Origin: Candidatus Woesearchaeota archaeon
Lineage (GTDB): Archaea > Nanobdellota > Nanobdellia > Woesearchaeales > JAFGLG01
Assembly: GCA_016928155.1 (NCBI GenBank)
Contig: JAFGLG010000006.1
Location: 38,374-102,373, forward strand
DNA: 64,000 nucleotides
Direction of reading: 5' to 3'
A program made the translations under genes and the position numbers. Positions 1,893 through 39,028 of this stretch are shown in pieces (within the stretch, counting starts at the first letter, position 1; each line of letters opens with the position of its first letter). The notes under the pieces were generated by a model. The model was not told where the DNA came from and did not search any database. It saw only the letters and a list, made by a program, of their open reading frames with translations.

Positions 1893-2990
1893 ATGGCAGG
1901 CCGTGAACAGAAGATAAAGGATCTTGAAGATGAGCTCTCCAAGATGAAGTACAATAAGAGGACTCAGCATCATTATGGCCTTGTCAGGGCCAAGATTGCC
2001 AAGCTCAAGGAGGAGCAGGATACCAAGAAGCGTGGCAAGGGAAAGACTTTTGGCTATGATGTTAAGCGCACCGGCGACGGCACTGTTGTCCTGGTAGGAT
2101 TCCCCAGTGTCGGAAAATCAACTCTGCTGAATGCCTTGACAAATCAGGAGTCAAAGATTGGGGCTTATGAATTCACGACTCTGGATGTTGTGCCTGGTCT
2201 CCTGGAATATCGGGGTGCCAAGATCCAGATTCTTGATCTCCCGGGGATAATAAGGGGTGCTGCTGCAGGCAAAGGCAGGGGCAAGGAGATACTTGCCGTT
2301 GTCCGGGCAAGCAATCTGATAATTTTCCTCCTTGATGTCCATCAGACGAATCATTACAGGGTGCTGTATGATGAGATCTTCAATTTTGGGATAAGGGTGA
2401 ACCAGAAGCCACCTCAGGTGAAGATAACCAAGACGAGCAGGGGCGGTCTTAGGATAGGCTCCACTGTGAAGCTGACCAAGATAACGAATGAGAACATCCA
2501 GGGCATCCTCAAGGAATTCAAGATAATGAATGCTGATGTGCTTATCAGGGAGGATGTTGACATTGATCGTTTCATTGATGCTGTCGAGGCTAACAAGGCT
2601 TATATCTATTCACTGATTGTCGTCAACAAGATTGATGAGGCCACAAGGCAGCAGGTTGATGGATTGAGGAGGTCTTATCCTGACGCTGTGTTCGTTTCAG
2701 GCAAGGAGAAGATAAACATCGACGAGCTGAAGGATAGGATTTTCGAGAGGATGGAGCTCATAAGGGTCTATATGAAGGAGCCCGGCAAGGAAGCTGACAC
2801 TAAGGTCCCGCTCATAATGTGGAGAGGGTGCACTATAGAGGATGTCTGCAACAAGCTCCATAGGGAGTTTGTCAGTAAGTTCAAGTTTGCGAGGGTTTGG
2901 GGCAGGTCAGTGAAGTTTGACGCCCAGAAGATAATGAAGAAGTCTCATCAGTTGGAAGATGAAGACATCCTGGAGCTTCATCTTAATTGA
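1893..2990 (+). CDS. DRG/Rbg-family GTP-binding protein with TGS domain
   Basis: This 365-residue protein is a developmentally regulated GTP-binding (DRG) type GTPase of the Obg superfamily. A basic coiled N-terminus precedes the G domain with the P-loop GFPSVGKST, G3 DLPGI and G4 NKID. An inserted segment interrupts the G domain, as in the family, and the last about 75 residues form a TGS domain. DRG proteins bind ribosomes and relieve stalling in eukaryotes; a ribosome-linked role here is inferred. A TTG at 1884 would overlap the upstream stop; the ATG at 1893 directly after that stop is the better start. It is convergent with the small gene that follows. Confidence 0.93.
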   Translation: MAGREQKIKDLEDELSKMKYNKRTQHHYGLVRAKIAKLKEEQDTKKRGKGKTFGYDVKRTGDGTVVLVGFPSVGKSTLLNALTNQESKIGAYEFTTLDVVPGLLEYRGAKIQILDLPGIIRGAAAGKGRGKEILAVVRASNLIIFLLDVHQTNHYRVLYDEIFNFGIRVNQKPPQVKITKTSRGGLRIGSTVKLTKITNENIQGILKEFKIMNADVLIREDVDIDRFIDAVEANKAYIYSLIVVNKIDEATRQQVDGLRRSYPDAVFVSGKEKINIDELKDRIFERMELIRVYMKEPGKEADTKVPLIMWRGCTIEDVCNKLHREFVSKFKFARVWGRSVKFDAQKIMKKSHQLEDEDILELHLN

Positions 2991-2999
2991 ATATTTTTC

Positions 3000-3146
3000 C
3001 TAGAAATCCATCAGGCCTTTCTGTCCTTTCAGCACAAGGTCTTTTGCTTCGTGGTATGTGATGCTTGACTTCAGCATGAGTTGCCTGATCTTTGTGTCAA
3101 TGTTTTTTTCTTCGTTCTGTTGGACAACCCACTGGTTAGCTTTCAT
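3000..3146 (-). CDS. Small conserved-looking protein of unknown function (48 aa)
   Basis: A 48-codon frame starts at the ATG at 3146, preceded by AAGAGG 8 nt upstream on the same strand. The frame stays open further upstream, but this start has the ribosome-binding site. The product is mixed-charge and helical looking, with a Trp and an ITYHEAKDLVLKG segment, and no recognised domain. It lies tail to tail with the DRG GTPase, 9 nt apart. I do not recognise a family. It could be spurious, but the ribosome-binding site and amino-acid composition favour a real gene. Confidence 0.5.
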   Translation of the reverse strand: MKANQWVVQQNEEKNIDTKIRQLMLKSSITYHEAKDLVLKGQKGLMDF

Positions 3147-3367
3147 CGCATCAGCCTCTTTTAGATGTAGTAAGTAACCCGCCGGAAACCTCCTACACAC
3201 AACTTAACAGCTTAGCGAAGTTTGTTATATAAATTTTATCATTCCTGATTTTTTGTTTCGCAGGAAATTTTTTGTGGGATCCAATGAAAAGCTTTATTAA
3301 CTTAGCAAGGATATGCGATTCAGGAGTGATTATTATCATATTGAAAATAAAGTGAGAATGGTCTGGC
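3147..3367. promoter_or_regulatory. Divergent promoter region
   Basis: About 220 bases lie between the small minus-strand gene and the PIN-ATPase gene. The stretch is AT-rich, with TATA-like runs near 3222-3240 and 3286-3300. No tRNA-like or repeated structure was seen. Confidence 0.4.
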
Positions 3368-5200
3368 ATGTCAAAAAAAGAGATCTTTGAGAAGGTTGTT
3401 CCTGATACTTCAGTGATAATAGAAGGGATTCTGTCGAGGAAGATTGAAAATGGTGAGATTGAGGTTAAGGAGATTCTTGTTCATGAGGCTGTGCTGGCTG
3501 AGCTTGAGAATCAGGCAAACCAGTCTAAGGAGACAGGCTTCCTTGGCATAAATGAGCTGAAGAGGATCAGGGAGCTTCAGCCTAGGTTCAATTACAGGAT
3601 CACATTTTCTGGTCAGAAGCCGAGATCATCTGAGATCAGGTATGCGAAGCTTGGTGAGATTGATTCCTTGATAAGGGATCTTGCTTACGATGAGGATGCT
3701 GTTCTTTTCACTGCAGATAAGGTTCAGGCCAAGGTTGCAGAGGCTAAAGGCATGAAAGTCAGGTTTCTCCAGATTTTCACAAAGAGGACTAGGATCAAGC
3801 TCGAATCATATTTCGATGAGACGACGATGTCTGTCCATCTGAGGGAGAACACTTTTCCTTATGCGAAGAAAGGCAGGCCTGGATCCTGGGATTTTGTCCC
3901 TCTGTCAGGATCATCCTTGAAGAGGGAGCAGATTCAGGAGATTGCTTCTGAGATCATCGAAGAGGCCAGCATAAGGGATGATGGATTTATTGAGATAGAG
4001 CGCCGCGGCTCGACTATTGTCCAGCTCGGTGTTTATCGTATTGTGATCACAAGGCCTGCTTTCTCTGATGGCTGGGAGATCACTGCTGTGCGGCCTGTGA
4101 AGAAGCTCAGCCTTGATGAATATCGCCTTTCAGAGAAGCTTATGCAGAGGATAGGACAGCAGGCTGAAGGGATCTTGATTGCTGGCTCTCCTGGAGCTGG
4201 GAAGACAACTTTTGTGCAGGCATTGGCGGAATTTTATGCATCGCAGAACAAGACTGTGAAGACTGTTGAGGCCCCGAGGGATCTCCAGCTTCCTGAGACA
4301 ATCACGCAGTATGCTATCTCGCATGGCTCGCCTGAAGAAATCCATGATATACTTTTGTTGGTCAGGCCGGATTATACTGTTTTTGATGAGATGCGCAACA
4401 CTTCTGACTTCAAGCTCTTTGCTGACATGAGGCTCAGCGGCGTCGGCATGATCGGTGTCCTTCATGCCACAAATCCTATTGATGCTATCCAGCGTTTTGT
4501 CGGCAGGATTGAATTGGGTGTTATTCCCCAGGTCATTGATACTGTCATTTTCATAAAGGATGGGGAGCCGAAGAAGGTCTTCAATCTGGCCATGGTTGTC
4601 AAGGTGCCGAGCGGCATGACTGAGCAGGATCTGGCCAGGCCTGTTGTGGTCGTCAATGATTTTGAATCCAACAGGCTTGAATATGAGCTTTATTCTTATG
4701 GCGAGGAGACTGTTGTCATACCTGTTAAGGGCGGCGGCCAGAAATCCACTGTGAAGAGGATGGCTGAGAAGAGCATAACACAGTATTTCAAGAATATCTC
4801 CGGGGCATGCGAGGTTGATGTGACGAGCGAGAACAGCTGCACTGTCAGGGTCCCTGAGAAGGATATCCCGAAGATTATCGGAAGGCAGGGCAAGAACATT
4901 GAGCAGATTGAGAAGGATCTGGGCCTTTCTATCAATGTTGAAGCCCTTTCGGGCAGGGCACAGCAAGGCTCAAGTGAGGGTGTTGCATTTGATCCTCAGG
5001 TCTCAAAGAATTCTGTGCTTTTCTATGTTGATGAAAGGTTCATTGGGAAGAATGTGGAGATCTATCTGGATGATGATTATCTTCTCACTGCAAATGTCGG
5101 CAAAAAAGCCCGCATAAAGATCCATGCCAAGAACAAGATCGGCAAGATGCTCGAAGAGGCTATCCATAAGAATGGCAATATCAGGTTGATATTGGTTTGA
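3368..5200 (+). CDS. PIN domain - PilT-like ATPase - KH domain protein
   Basis: A 610-residue protein of the archaeal PINc/VapC-ATPase group (COG1855). Residues about 8-140 are a PIN nuclease-like domain starting VVPDTSVIIEG, with conserved acidic residues. Residues about 230-450 are a type II/IV secretion-like ATPase with Walker A GSPGAGKTT near 275 and Walker B DEMR. Residues about 495-555 are a KH domain with the GxxG loop GRQG. The combination implies ATP-dependent RNA binding or cleavage, but the cellular role is not established. It has its own upstream region and is followed by serS. A 278-codon minus-strand frame inside it is a shadow. Confidence 0.92.
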   Translation: MSKKEIFEKVVPDTSVIIEGILSRKIENGEIEVKEILVHEAVLAELENQANQSKETGFLGINELKRIRELQPRFNYRITFSGQKPRSSEIRYAKLGEIDSLIRDLAYDEDAVLFTADKVQAKVAEAKGMKVRFLQIFTKRTRIKLESYFDETTMSVHLRENTFPYAKKGRPGSWDFVPLSGSSLKREQIQEIASEIIEEASIRDDGFIEIERRGSTIVQLGVYRIVITRPAFSDGWEITAVRPVKKLSLDEYRLSEKLMQRIGQQAEGILIAGSPGAGKTTFVQALAEFYASQNKTVKTVEAPRDLQLPETITQYAISHGSPEEIHDILLLVRPDYTVFDEMRNTSDFKLFADMRLSGVGMIGVLHATNPIDAIQRFVGRIELGVIPQVIDTVIFIKDGEPKKVFNLAMVVKVPSGMTEQDLARPVVVVNDFESNRLEYELYSYGEETVVIPVKGGGQKSTVKRMAEKSITQYFKNISGACEVDVTSENSCTVRVPEKDIPKIIGRQGKNIEQIEKDLGLSINVEALSGRAQQGSSEGVAFDPQVSKNSVLFYVDERFIGKNVEIYLDDDYLLTANVGKKARIKIHAKNKIGKMLEEAIHKNGNIRLILV

Positions 5201-15716: not shown

Positions 15717-15789
15717 TGGGCCCACTGGGAATCGAACCCAGGATCTTCGCCTTGTGAAGGCGACGTCATAGCCACTAGACCATGGGCCC
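15717..15789 (-). tRNA. tRNA-Val (CAC)
   Basis: A 73-nt intron-free tRNA. The acceptor GGGCCCA pairs with TGGGCCC (15718-15724). The anticodon stem is TCGCC/GGCGA with loop TTCACAA (anticodon CAC at 15754-15756). The T arm is CTGGG-TTCGATT-CCCAG and the discriminator is A. CCA is not encoded. It lies between the radical SAM gene and the pilin-like operon on the same strand. Confidence 0.97.
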
Positions 15790-24191: not shown

Positions 24192-26003
24192 ATGATATTA
24201 GATTATGGAAAGATCGGTCTGAAGTGTGGTATTGAGATTCACCAGCAGCTGGATACTGGTAAGCTTTTCTGCAGATGCCCTTCAATGATCCTTGATGATG
24301 GTCCGGATTTCACTTTCACAAGGCGTCTCAGGGCTGTGATTGGTGAGACTGGGGAGGTTGATGCAGCTGCTGCTCATGAGCAGATGCGCCAGAAGCTGTA
24401 TGAATATCATTTCCATGGCAGGAATTGCTGTCTTGTCGATATGGATGAGGAGCCTCCGCATGATATGGATAAGGGTGCTTTGGATATTGTCCTCACAGTT
24501 TCTAAGATGCTTGATGCAGAGGTCGTGGACGAGATCCAGGTGATGAGGAAGACTGTTGTTGATGGTTCTAATACATCCGGATTTCAGAGGACTGCTCTTG
24601 TTGCCAGGAATGGCGCTTATGACACTTCATTGGGTAGGATTAGGGTGCCGACAATAATGGTTGAGGAGGATTCCTGCAAGATTATCGAGGAGAGCCAGGA
24701 GAAGAAGGTCTATGATCTTTCCAGGCTTGGCATCCCATTGATTGAGATTGGCACTGAGCCGGATATAAAGACACCAGAGCATGCGAAGGAGGCTGCTGAA
24801 TATCTTGGTATGTTGCTGAGGAGCACCAAGAGGGTCAAGAGGGGTCTTGGCACCATAAGGCAGGATTTGAATGTTTCAGTAAAGGGTGGTGAGAGGATTG
24901 AGATCAAGGGTGCTCAGGATCTGAGGATGATCCCCACTCTTGTAGAATACGAAGCAAAGCGTCAGCTTGCATTGCTTGAGATAAAGGATGCTCTGAAGAA
25001 GGATTTCAAGCTTGAGAAAGTGGATCTTACGAAGATCTTGTCAGCTTGTGATTCGAAGATCATCACTTCAGCTCTGAAGGCTAAAGGTGTTGTCATAGGT
25101 TTTAAGCTTCCTGGATTCAGAGGGCTTATAGGCAAGGAGCTTGTCCCGAACAAGAGGCTTGGCACTGAATTCAGCGATTATGCCAAGGTCAAGGCTGGTG
25201 TCAGCGGTCTTTTTCATTCTGATGAGCTTCCGAAATATGGCATCACTGGAGATGATGTCAGGAATATATCCTCAAAGCTTTCCTGCAAGGAAGGGGATGC
25301 CTTCATATTGGTTGCTGATTCAAAGGAGAAGGCTCGTAAGGCAATTGATGCTATTTTCGAACGTGTAATGATGTGTTTTGATGGTGTTCCGAAAGAGGTG
25401 AGAAGGGCCAATCCTGACGGTACCTCTACTTTCATGAGGCCTATACCCAGCGCTGCGAGGATGTATCCTGAGACTGATGTGCTTCCTGTCAGGCCAGACA
25501 CGGGAATGATCAGGATTCCTGCATTGTTGACAGATGTTGCTAAGGATCTTGAGAAGATTCTTGGGAAGGATCTTTCTGTGCAGATATCCAAGTCAGATAG
25601 GATTGATCTGTTCAATGGATTGAGAGATAGGTTCAGGAATCTTAAGCCGTTGTTCATTGCTGAAACCATACTGAACACCCCGAAGGAGATCAAGAAAAGA
25701 TATGATGTTGAATTTTTATTTGATGAAGATGTCCTGACAAAGGTCTTGGATGCAGCAGACAAAGGAACCATTTCAAAGGATGCTGTTATTGGGGCTCTGG
25801 CTGATTATTCCAGGACTGGGAAGCTTTCTCTGTCAGGATATCAGCTTCTTTCAGATGAGGACATTGGGTCAGAGATTGATAGTATAATCAAGAAGCACAA
25901 AGGCCTTCCGTTTAATGCTCTTGTGGGCAAAGTCATGAATGAGCTCAGGGGCAAGGCAGATGGCAAGAAAATTATGGATATCCTTAAGAAAAAAGTCAAT
26001 TGA
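24192..26003 (+). CDS. gatE: Glu-tRNA(Gln) amidotransferase subunit E
   Basis: A 603-residue GatE, the tRNA-binding, kinase and transamidase subunit. It begins with KCGIEIHQQLDTGKLFCRCP (GatB-like fold). A GAD insertion of the AspRS type (about residues 280-400) comes next, then helical and YqeY-like C-terminal domains. The TTG at 24186 overlaps the gatD stop; the ATG at 24192 is preferred. It is convergent with the glycosidase-like gene and overlaps its 3' end by 8 nt. Confidence 0.96.
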   Translation: MILDYGKIGLKCGIEIHQQLDTGKLFCRCPSMILDDGPDFTFTRRLRAVIGETGEVDAAAAHEQMRQKLYEYHFHGRNCCLVDMDEEPPHDMDKGALDIVLTVSKMLDAEVVDEIQVMRKTVVDGSNTSGFQRTALVARNGAYDTSLGRIRVPTIMVEEDSCKIIEESQEKKVYDLSRLGIPLIEIGTEPDIKTPEHAKEAAEYLGMLLRSTKRVKRGLGTIRQDLNVSVKGGERIEIKGAQDLRMIPTLVEYEAKRQLALLEIKDALKKDFKLEKVDLTKILSACDSKIITSALKAKGVVIGFKLPGFRGLIGKELVPNKRLGTEFSDYAKVKAGVSGLFHSDELPKYGITGDDVRNISSKLSCKEGDAFILVADSKEKARKAIDAIFERVMMCFDGVPKEVRRANPDGTSTFMRPIPSAARMYPETDVLPVRPDTGMIRIPALLTDVAKDLEKILGKDLSVQISKSDRIDLFNGLRDRFRNLKPLFIAETILNTPKEIKKRYDVEFLFDEDVLTKVLDAADKGTISKDAVIGALADYSRTGKLSLSGYQLLSDEDIGSEIDSIIKKHKGLPFNALVGKVMNELRGKADGKKIMDILKKKVN

Positions 26004-27090
26004 GTCTCATTCTGTTCGCCATGCCCAGATACATTGATGCCCATAGCATGTTGTGGTCGCAATAGTAAAGCAGGGTTCGGAATGGCTTTCCGTTTGGCCA
26101 GTATACTTCCAGGAAATTCTTGTGCTTCTCGATGTTTTCCTTGTATCTTGACAAGTACTCTTTTGCCAGTTTCTTATCCACCTTAGACACGACTGATATA
26201 TAACACAGTCCGAGATGCGTCCAGAGCGTATCAGCCTCATAATCCGGGAGCAGCATGCTCATTGGCCATCTTATTTCCCCCTTGAGCGGCTTGTGTGTAT
26301 ATTTTAGGGGGAATGGATCATCAAGATGGTTCTCTTGTATTGCTTTGATTGATTTCTTCATCATCGCTGCCGAATCAAAGAGCCCTGTCCAGTATGGGAA
26401 CGTGTTTGCGTCCCCTGCGACATGATTTGTATTTGTGGTATCCAAAAAATAGTCTCCGTTCCAGAATTTTTCTTTTACTGTCTTCGTTATATTATGATTC
26501 TTGAAAGGATTGTCCAGTCTTGTCCTCTTTAATTCTTCATTGAGCAATGCAAGCATGCAGTTGTCATAGCAGCTGCTCCTTCTCCTGGAGTTGTCTTTTA
26601 TCGACGAGAAATTGATATTCTTTGTGAGGAGCCCTGTCTTCTCATCGAATGCGAATTCGTGGTAGAAATATGTCTGGGCCTGCAGGAAATCATGGTATCT
26701 CTCAGACAGTTCTTTTGATTTTGACTTCCTCAGGCACATCAGTAGAAACGGCAGGGACTCTGCTGAGTATGAGAACACGCTGACTGGCCTTCCTCTTGGG
26801 TTTATTGTTGTTGTCAGCTTGTGGTGCTCTGAGAATCTTGACAATGCATAGGAGAGTGTCTGCTTGACTTCATTTTTATGTCCGAGCTCAAGCAGGTGTG
26901 GCATGCAGAATGTGAAGTCCCTCACATAGAACTCATTGAAATGCCCGCTGCTGGTCAGGAAATATTTTCCATTCCAGCATCTCTTGATTATGGATTTGCA
27001 TATCTCTTTATGGTCTCCGGCATGCTTCTCGAATCCCATTATCTTCCTTGCTTGGCTTTTGAGGAATATTCTGCTGCCTTCAGAGATCAT
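25996..27090 (-). CDS. Six-hairpin glycosidase-like protein
   Basis: A 364-residue helical protein with paired helices and aromatic/acidic motifs (EFYVRDFTFCMP, CYDNCMLAL, GEIRWPMSML, YYCDHNMLWAS). The pattern resembles the alpha/alpha toroid of GH15-like or glucanotransferase-like enzymes; the substrate is unknown. The frame is open upstream to 27192, but that part runs through the tRNA-Arg gene, so the ATG at 27090, 15 nt after the mature tRNA end, is the likely start. No ribosome-binding site is seen there. The gene could be expressed with the tRNA precursor. Confidence 0.6.
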   Translation of the reverse strand: MISEGSRIFLKSQARKIMGFEKHAGDHKEICKSIIKRCWNGKYFLTSSGHFNEFYVRDFTFCMPHLLELGHKNEVKQTLSYALSRFSEHHKLTTTINPRGRPVSVFSYSAESLPFLLMCLRKSKSKELSERYHDFLQAQTYFYHEFAFDEKTGLLTKNINFSSIKDNSRRRSSCYDNCMLALLNEELKRTRLDNPFKNHNITKTVKEKFWNGDYFLDTTNTNHVAGDANTFPYWTGLFDSAAMMKKSIKAIQENHLDDPFPLKYTHKPLKGEIRWPMSMLLPDYEADTLWTHLGLCYISVVSKVDKKLAKEYLSRYKENIEKHKNFLEVYWPNGKPFRTLLYYCDHNMLWASMYLGMANRMRLN

Positions 27091-27119
27091 GTCAAAGGTT
27101 TTCAACGCGCCTGGAGGGA

Positions 27120-27162
27120 CTTTCGATGCCCTGGCGTTAAGCTTGTCACGCCAGTGGCGATG
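27120..27162 (-). other. tRNA-Arg intron 3 (T loop, 59/60), 43 nt
   Basis: The T stem GAGGG/CCCTC stacks on the central helix TTCG/CGAA with bulges AAC and AGT. The intron stem begins with AT/AT and GCC/GGC. This is a complete bulge-helix-bulge. Confidence 0.75.
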
Positions 27163-27184
27163 TTCGAACCCTCGATCTACAGCT

Positions 27185-27253
27185 TTCCACATGCCGCTTC
27201 AGCTAACTCTCTTCATACCCCGAAGGATACTTCAAAGGTTTTCGTCATCAGCT
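27185..27253 (-). other. tRNA-Arg intron 2 (anticodon loop, 37/38), 69 nt
   Basis: It is placed by the need to join CTCCTA to A-GCTGT. The central helix is only TCC/GGA, so the boundaries may shift by one base. It contains one copy of a 12-nt repeat that recurs in the 3' trailer. Confidence 0.65.
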
Positions 27254-27272
27254 TAGGAGGCTGTCACCCTAT

Positions 27273-27290
27273 TTGCCCTTTCTGGGAAAT
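27273..27290 (-). other. tRNA-Arg intron 1 (D loop), 18 nt
   Basis: It lies after the two conserved D-loop Gs. The central helix GCCT/GGGC (one wobble) is flanked by bulges GGA and AAA, with a 3-bp TTT/AAA intron hairpin. Confidence 0.75.
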
Positions 27291-27360
27291 CCAGGCTAGG
27301 CTACAGGCGCATTTATAAAGCAGCGAATACTAATCTTTTAATAGTTTTCGACTTTTATAT

Positions 27361-32182: not shown

Positions 32183-33074
32183 GATTATCACCTAGTATCA
32201 TCTTTATTTCATCCAGAATATGATGATGGACTTCCGCAACCTTGACTCCTGCTTTTCTCAAAGCTTCTACTTTTGCCTGGCGGGTGCCTTTTGTTCCTTC
32301 AACTATGGCTCCTGCATGCCCAAGTGTCATGTTGGGGAGATTTGATGCGAAATTGCCTGACACAAATGCTGCTATCGGCTTCGTTATCTCTCCTCTTGAT
32401 ACTGATTCTGCCACGAGCTCTTCATACGTGCCCCCGATTTCTCCGAAGATCACAGTGCACTTGGTGTCCTTGTCTCTCTCGAACATCTTGAGCATGTCGA
32501 CGAAGTCTGATCCTATGAGCCGATCCCCGCCTATTCCTATTACTGTGGATTGTCCGATGCCCTCCTGTGTCAGGAGATTTGCTGTCTCTGAGCTCATTCC
32601 GCCGCTCTTTGATATTATCCCGACTGGTCCATTCATGTAGCTGCTGTTGTCCGCTCCGCCGATTGGTCCCATCTTGCATTTGCCAGGGCTTATTATGCCG
32701 ACTGATGATGGTCCGACAATCACAGCCCCGCTTTTTCTTGCTGCTTCCAGGAAATAGGCTGTGTCATGCACAGGTATATTCTCTGTGATGATATTGATGA
32801 GCTTGATTCCGTTGTTTATGGCATCCATGACAGCCTCTTTTGCCTGCATCGGAGGCACAAATATCACTGTTGCATCGACGTCATGGTTATGCAGCGCCTC
32901 ATTCACTGATCCATACACAGGGACTCCATCTACATTCTGGCCTGTCTTGCCTGGAGTCACTCCGCACACTACCTTCACTTTGTAGTCGAGCATCTCTTTG
33001 CAGGCTTGTCTTCCTTGCTTGCCTGTTATGGCCTGGATCATCACTCTTGTTTCATCATCGATCATTATGCTCAT
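32175..33074 (-). CDS. Citryl-CoA synthetase small subunit (SucD-like)
   Basis: A 299-residue CoA-binding, phosphohistidine-type subunit. It has an N-terminal Rossmann CoA domain (ITGKQGRQACKEM) and the phosphorylated His loop GHAGAIVEG. On its own it could be succinyl-CoA synthetase alpha. The ATP-citrate-lyase features of its partner and the lyase gene next door point to citryl-CoA synthesis. It overlaps the large-subunit gene by 4 nt (ATGA). Confidence 0.82.
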   Translation of the reverse strand: MSIMIDDETRVMIQAITGKQGRQACKEMLDYKVKVVCGVTPGKTGQNVDGVPVYGSVNEALHNHDVDATVIFVPPMQAKEAVMDAINNGIKLINIITENIPVHDTAYFLEAARKSGAVIVGPSSVGIISPGKCKMGPIGGADNSSYMNGPVGIISKSGGMSSETANLLTQEGIGQSTVIGIGGDRLIGSDFVDMLKMFERDKDTKCTVIFGEIGGTYEELVAESVSRGEITKPIAAFVSGNFASNLPNMTLGHAGAIVEGTKGTRQAKVEALRKAGVKVAEVHHHILDEIKMILGDNHG

Positions 33075-38927: not shown

Positions 38928-39028
38928 AGCCCCCGGGGGTATTTGCAACCCCGACCTTCTGATTGCTTCCCAGCAATCATTGATTGGCTGATACAAGTCA
39001 GACGCAATAGCTACTATGCTACGGGGGC
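38928..39028 (-). tRNA. tRNA-Thr (UGU) with 28-nt intron
   Basis: The 101-nt gene gives a 73-nt tRNA. The acceptor GCCCCCG pairs with CGGGGGC, the anticodon stem TCTGA with TCAGA, and the anticodon TGT is at 38993-38995. Discriminator U73 is known for some archaeal tRNA-Thr. The T loop reads TGCAAAT between GGGGT and ACCCC, so position 55 is G where T is nearly universal. The intron lies at the canonical 37/38 position. Confidence 0.88.
38964..38991 (-). other. tRNA-Thr intron, 28 nt
   Basis: A CTT/AAG helix between exon and intron end, plus an internal CAGC/GCTG stem, make a relaxed bulge-helix-bulge. The boundary could shift by one base. Confidence 0.75.

Follow-up and report, generated by a model that had tools for sequence, protein, structure and literature searches.

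Precursor tRNAs with several introns have been described in archaea, in which up to three bulge-helix-bulge (BHB) introns are found in one tRNA, noncanonical sites are used and similar introns occur in different tRNAs (PMC4033280, PMC8450103). A sequence-only reading of the DNA studied here had held such tRNAs to be mainly known from Thermoproteales. They are indeed prominent there, with a mean of 0.84 introns per tRNA gene and a record of 71 introns in 46 genes (PMC8450103), but the tabulated cases extend to other Crenarchaeota, N. equitans, ARMAN, Korarchaeum and two euryarchaea (PMC4033280). Among the splicing endonucleases, alpha4 enzymes have strict BHB specificity and recognition by arginine and tryptophan, in place of two arginines, is found in the broad types (PMC4033280, PMC6379350). 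Box C/D RNAs have been observed in 37/38 introns of tRNA-Trp (sR50), where the intron guides modification of tRNA-Trp itself, and of N. equitans tRNA-Met, for which no target is stated (PMC7994747, PMC3491384). Helices 68-71 of 23S rRNA domain IV are a known C/D hotspot (PMC7994747), and the bacterial enzyme TlyA 2'-O-methylates 23S C1920 (PMC7317525).

In the window (the whole stretch of 64,000 nucleotides that was analysed), the sequence-only reading had proposed a tRNA-Arg(CCU) gene whose introns of 18, 69 and 43 nt leave a 75-nt tRNA. The gene is present as described and lies on the minus strand, which had not been given (Table 1). Our preferred reading, to which we assign a probability of roughly 0.8, is that this is a working tRNA-Arg(CCU) gene from which three introns are spliced and whose middle intron would serve as a C/D guide for the E. 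coli C1920 equivalent in helix 69 (H69) of 23S rRNA. The joined exons read GCGCCTGTAGCCTAGCCTGG, ATAGGGTGACAGCCTCCTA, AGCTGTAGATCGAGGGTTCGAA and TCCCTCCAGGCGC plus G73, in which every stem is present and the anticodon is CCU. A complete cloverleaf is restored once the three introns are taken out, which places them with the archaeal BHB tRNA introns.

Table 1. Positions in the window of the tRNA-Arg(CCU) gene and of the elements found in it
Feature	Position	Strand	Basis
tRNA-Arg(CCU) gene, 205 nt, mature tRNA 75 nt	27106..27310	-	BHB scan and structural finder
Exon 1: acceptor 5' strand, D stem, D loop up to G19	27291..27310	-	BHB scan, orthologue alignment
D-loop intron, 18 nt, 19/20, strict BHB	27273..27290	-	BHB scan; relatives with same site
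Exon 2: D stem 3', anticodon stem 5', anticodon CCU	27254..27272	-	orthologue alignment
Anticodon intron, 69 nt, 37/38, relaxed BHB, holds predicted box C/D sRNA	27185..27253	-	alignments, covariance model
C box CUGAUGA	27245..27251	-	sRNA alignment
Probable D' guide CTTTGAAGT; complements 23S ~54 nt 5' of D target	27229..27237	-	weak taken alone
C'-like box GUAUGA	27213..27218	-	read by eye off sRNA alignment
D guide GAAGAGAGTTAG, 10 Watson-Crick pairs to 23S H69	27203..27214	-	target search
D box CUGA	27199..27202	-	sRNA alignment
Exon 3: anticodon stem 3', variable loop, T stem 5', T loop to 59	27163..27184	-	orthologue alignment
T-loop intron, 43 nt, 59/60, strict BHB	27120..27162	-	BHB scan
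Exon 4: T stem 3', acceptor 3' strand, G73	27106..27119	-	orthologue alignment

The gene was reported neither by ARAGORN, with or without introns, nor by Rfam at the gathering threshold. A structural finder that permits introns in the D, anticodon and T arms returned exactly this three-intron solution with a score of 22.4, the sole match of 14 or more in the window, compared with best scores of 14.4 in 40 and 17.6 in 800 dinucleotide-shuffled windows. The tRNA and its three introns are secure as features of the sequence. Two other tRNA genes were noticed on the minus strand, an intronless tRNA-Val(CAC) at 15717-15789 and, at 38928-39028, a tRNA with an anticodon intron and an odd T loop that is possibly Thr(UGU). 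Two of the neighbouring genes between 24186 and 28414 are tRNA-related, one for a GatB/GatE-type amidotransferase and the other, truD, for a pseudouridine synthase. The longest reading of an open reading frame without a Pfam match (25996-27192) runs into the 3' end of tRNA-Arg(CCU).

When the 205 nt were scanned for strict BHBs, the full motif (3-4-3) was found at the borders of the D and T introns, with the cut behind the second bulge base in both, as the sequence-only reading had noticed. The D intron has an outer helix of 4 bp, a 4-bp central helix GCCU/GGGC, 3-nt bulges GG-A and AA-A and an inner helix UUU/AAA. In the T intron, the outer helix GAGGG/CCCUC is followed by the four central pairs UUCG/CGAA with 3-nt bulges AA-C and AG-U. 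The anticodon intron is relaxed, as had also been claimed: its 5-bp outer helix is the anticodon stem, three of the four central pairs form and a contiguous inner helix is absent. The sequence-only reading had supposed an endonuclease of broad, three-site specificity. Such breadth is not needed for the two noncanonical introns, since both are strict BHBs, and only the 37/38 intron is relaxed.

Comparison of a 341-nt stretch with 60 genomes of the same order shows that the exons are conserved and that the matches end at the intron borders. The orthologous tRNA-Arg genes were observed to have many different combinations of introns at 19/20, 37/38 and 59/60; these introns are mostly unrelated in sequence and length, and several orthologues are without one or all of them. 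The D intron is also absent from the paralogue tRNA-Arg(UCU) of the same genome (L027), where the junction is uninterrupted. At the T-loop site the T stem serves as the outer helix of the BHB and the invariant UUCR supplies the 5' strand of its central helix, so that the site is in principle present in every tRNA and any intron ending in YGAANN fits 59/60. We noticed that the identity of R57 changes with intron base -6. When BHBs were left out of the scoring of intron boundaries, among introns with C or T at -6 (a few have other bases) G57 was found with C in 11/13 cases and A57 with T in 11/11, giving G-C or A-U in 22/24 (Fisher p = 3e-5), a p-value that is indicative only because the candidates include some dubious calls and related genes.

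The source genome (1.48 Mb in 17 contigs, 99.7% complete) had been read as DPANN-like, and its endonuclease (EndA) relatives, which carry the names Woesearchaeota or Nanoarchaeota, agree with this and point to Woesearchaeota. Only 20 of its tRNAs were above the Rfam threshold because many other tRNA genes are interrupted. We resolved 31 tRNA genes, which together have 46 introns: 25 lie at 37/38, 15 at 59/60 and 6 in the D loop, the last count omitting one further call judged spurious. These genes are a subset that was drawn from stretches around weak tRNA matches and T-arm motifs and is biased towards interrupted genes. All three arms are interrupted in at least three tRNAs, Arg(CCU), Val(UAC) and Gln(CUG). 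An intact second tRNA-Arg(CCU), which the sequence-only reading had named as a finding that would speak against it, was not seen in searches of the source genome, nor was any other CCU tRNA. A D intron of 106 nt was also called in tRNA-Pro(CGG) but is an artefact of a repeat, the 5' part of this gene being duplicated ~106 nt upstream of the intact gene (L006). Class II tRNA-like genes, with a long variable arm, were also observed to have T-loop introns (L018 minus strand 1313-1426, L025, L028 and L030), and their anticodon is GAT in three and GAA in one.

The T introns of Arg(CCU) and Cys(GCA) (C17 ~32,290-32,740, L027) align at a score of 18 with a null maximum of 13, and the same values were found for the anticodon introns of Trp(CCA) and Cys(GCA); from such alignments, introns seem to have been copied between different tRNA genes. 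The anticodon introns of tRNA-Trp(CCA) (L017) and tRNA-Leu(CAA) (L215) contain GATGATG or CTGATG and are possible further box C/D RNAs. A search of mainly open-access literature found no dedicated study of Woesearchaeota tRNA introns; Kaneta 2018 is reportedly a survey of endonuclease and intron types.

The sequence-only reading had missed the box C/D guide RNA predicted in the middle intron. The anticodon intron is common to two relatives in the comparison with the 60 genomes, and in the aligned copies the C box (UGAUGA-like), the guide GAGAGTTAG and the D box CTGA are conserved while the remainder diverges. The closing kink-turn stem is GCC/GGC in the copies and GCU/AGC here, three pairs with one compensatory change. 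The pattern GAGAGTTAGCTGA was found in 22/287 genomes of the order as against 1 for the reversed control, many of these matches looking like coding sequence and six being non-intronic sRNAs with the same boxes. A covariance model gave matches in 47/287 genomes of the order and a single one in the source genome, the only copy of the sRNA found there; one match beyond the order (G562, L285) seems to be a false positive in coding sequence. No Rfam sRNA family matches the middle intron.

Among the loci examined, there are 15 genomes in which the sRNA lies within the tRNA-Arg(CCU) 37/38 intron, and in two genomes (G149 and G183) the full three-intron layout is repeated with the sRNA in the middle intron. 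It is near tRNA-Arg(CCU) in seven others, within ~35 nt in five (G150, G265, G008, G233 and G189, the neighbouring tRNA of G150 being CAA by the finder and Arg(CCU) by eye) and at 340 and 1306 nt in two; in the remaining genomes the two are apart. From these alignments and matches, the presence of a box C/D guide RNA in the middle intron is well supported.

The D guide forms 10 contiguous Watson-Crick pairs with the genome's own 23S rRNA within GGGAGUAACUAUAACUCUCUUAAGGU in helix 69. The D+5 rule selects a C in this sequence that is the equivalent of E. coli C1920, and the placement in helix 69 is based on the known positions of the H69 pseudouridine and of m5U1939 together with the LSU/1931 intron site. 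Shuffled guides reached 10 pairs in that slot in only 36/5000 trials. About 9% of shuffled introns have a 10-nt match somewhere in 23S, so that only the placement in the guide slot and the conservation count. At least 8 pairs to the H69 site are kept by 28/36 sRNA copies, a count that is not independent because this guide was part of the training of the model that collected them. In ten copies the D' slot is occupied by TTTCGCTA, which is complementary to the adjoining stretch of 23S. Other D-guide targets in source-genome stretches, including the tRNA loci, were either dependent on G-U pairs or in unrelated DNA, leaving H69 as the sole rRNA match with 10 contiguous pairs. The 23S H69 target and the guiding role of the sRNA are likely on this evidence.

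The genome's own 23S rRNA (L251) was observed to contain ~714 nt inserted at 2912-3625 between AAGGT and AGCGAAAT, at LSU/1931; by eye the insert has a LAGLIDADG-like reading frame, and Rfam gives a group I match below threshold. Group I introns are known at LSU/1931 in Woesearchaeota (PMC6125680). Many relatives have the D' guide TTTCGCTA, whose pairing spans the junction of this insert.

A single PF01974 gene of 174 aa was found in the source genome. The encoded alpha-type protein has N- and C-domains, and the catalytic residues Y110, H120 and K151 are invariant in 96 relatives, features which agree with an alpha4 enzyme. Neither the beta subunit of an (alpha-beta)2 enzyme nor the three-unit fusion of an epsilon2 enzyme was found. 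Sequence comparison revealed no loop of CSL (15-18 aa) or ASL (11 aa) size; the loop is ~1 residue longer than that of M. jannaschii and shorter than ASL. The C-terminal W171 is invariant in 96/96 relatives, and a role in recognition is suggested by its position only. The single alpha-type enzyme probably forms a homotetramer. The relaxed 37/38 introns argue against the view that such an alpha4-type enzyme would cleave strict BHBs only. Conversely, the relaxed 37/38 motif weighs against our preferred reading, as single-alpha enzymes reportedly require a strict BHB.

An enzyme of broad specificity, as supposed in the sequence-only reading, would be obtained if a second, diverged endonuclease subunit made an (alpha-beta)2 assembly, which we regard as unlikely. 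Two observations fit such an assembly: among solved structures the endonuclease best matches the alpha subunit of N. equitans, and its invariant C-terminal Trp is typical of broad enzymes. Against it, an acidic stretch is kept at the L10 position of the alpha subunit, nearly all of the 60 relatives have one endonuclease gene and no second PF01974 gene or beta subunit was found in the source genome even at E=10, the alpha search likewise giving one match, even though the source-genome alpha is matched by the N. equitans beta subunit at 3e-16.

The nature of the middle intron may be read differently. It could merely resemble a C/D sRNA, or be a relic of one, in an otherwise real set of introns, with its conservation due to shared descent or splicing constraint. 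We consider this rather unlikely: the guide is lost in some copies (L274, L282, L286 and L287) and chance matches to 23S are not rare, but the guide, both boxes and the closing stem persist amid divergence and the same sRNA stands outside any tRNA in other genomes. Stepwise removal of the intron is quite improbable. A nested strict BHB with a 7-bp inner helix lies within it (27231-27209, minus strand) and would be excised before the remainder, but this motif may be chance, given that ~1 strict BHB is expected per 205 nt by a rough estimate, and the D' slot would be lost with it, as would the 5' end of the D guide. That the gene is a pseudogene or a chance assembly of tRNA-like pieces is hardly credible; standard programs missed it, but its score is above all shuffles, its exons are conserved in orthologues and no other CCU gene was seen.

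Under the preferred reading of a working gene with a guide-bearing middle intron, we infer cleavage, ligation, RNP assembly, methylation and enzyme specificity as follows. The minus-strand precursor would fold into strict BHBs at 19/20 and 59/60 and a relaxed motif at 37/38, the splicing endonuclease (one alpha-type gene found, probably a homotetramer) would cut all three introns and RtcB ligase would join the exons to the 75-nt tRNA. The 37/38 intron, with its C box, D box, kink-turn stem and D guide, would bind L7Ae, Nop5 and fibrillarin, and the assembled sRNA would direct 2'-O-methylation of the 23S C1920 equivalent in helix 69. One transcript would in this way give both a tRNA and a ribosome-modifying RNA, and retention of the 37/38 intron would be explained because the sole copy of the sRNA found in the genome sits there. 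A more tentative proposal, which we hold as a possibility on the doubtful side, is that the tRNA-Arg(CCU) 37/38 intron has been conserved in Woesearchaeales as a locus with two products, the tRNA and the cell's only H69 C1920 guide, that a single-alpha endonuclease handles relaxed motifs, contrary to the rule for alpha4 enzymes, and that the guide has changed place repeatedly between intron, flank and a gene of its own.

The locus adds a large DPANN order to the archaea with many tRNA introns, an order in which standard annotation under-reports them. With what appears to be one alpha-type gene alongside relaxed and noncanonical introns, these genomes are also a natural test case for the rule that intron diversity is set by the type of endonuclease. 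The guide that the middle intron is predicted to carry may be the reason for its retention, and one sRNA can be followed here in graded states, intronic, adjacent and separate.

Compared with the multi-intron precursors described before, the present case is from Woesearchaeota, its sites are concentrated at 19/20, 37/38 and 59/60, only one alpha-type endonuclease gene is found and the middle intron appears to encode a guide RNA. Introns in the D, anticodon and T arms also occur in tRNA-Ile(UAU) of Cyanidioschyzon merolae, a eukaryote with a TSEN-type enzyme, in a study whose abstract makes no mention of C/D RNA (PMC9602550). A C/D RNA predicted to guide rRNA modification from tRNA-Arg(CCU) across an order had no prior description among the papers of our mainly open-access literature search. 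Unlike the tRNA-Trp and tRNA-Met introns, the sRNA here resides in tRNA-Arg(CCU), has a predicted 23S target and is common to families of one order. TlyA acts on the same 23S nucleotide as predicted here and differs in being a protein enzyme that is not RNA-guided (PMC7317525); RNA-guided chemistry in archaea and a protein enzyme in bacteria are thus predicted to converge on one 23S nucleotide, with no common descent implied.
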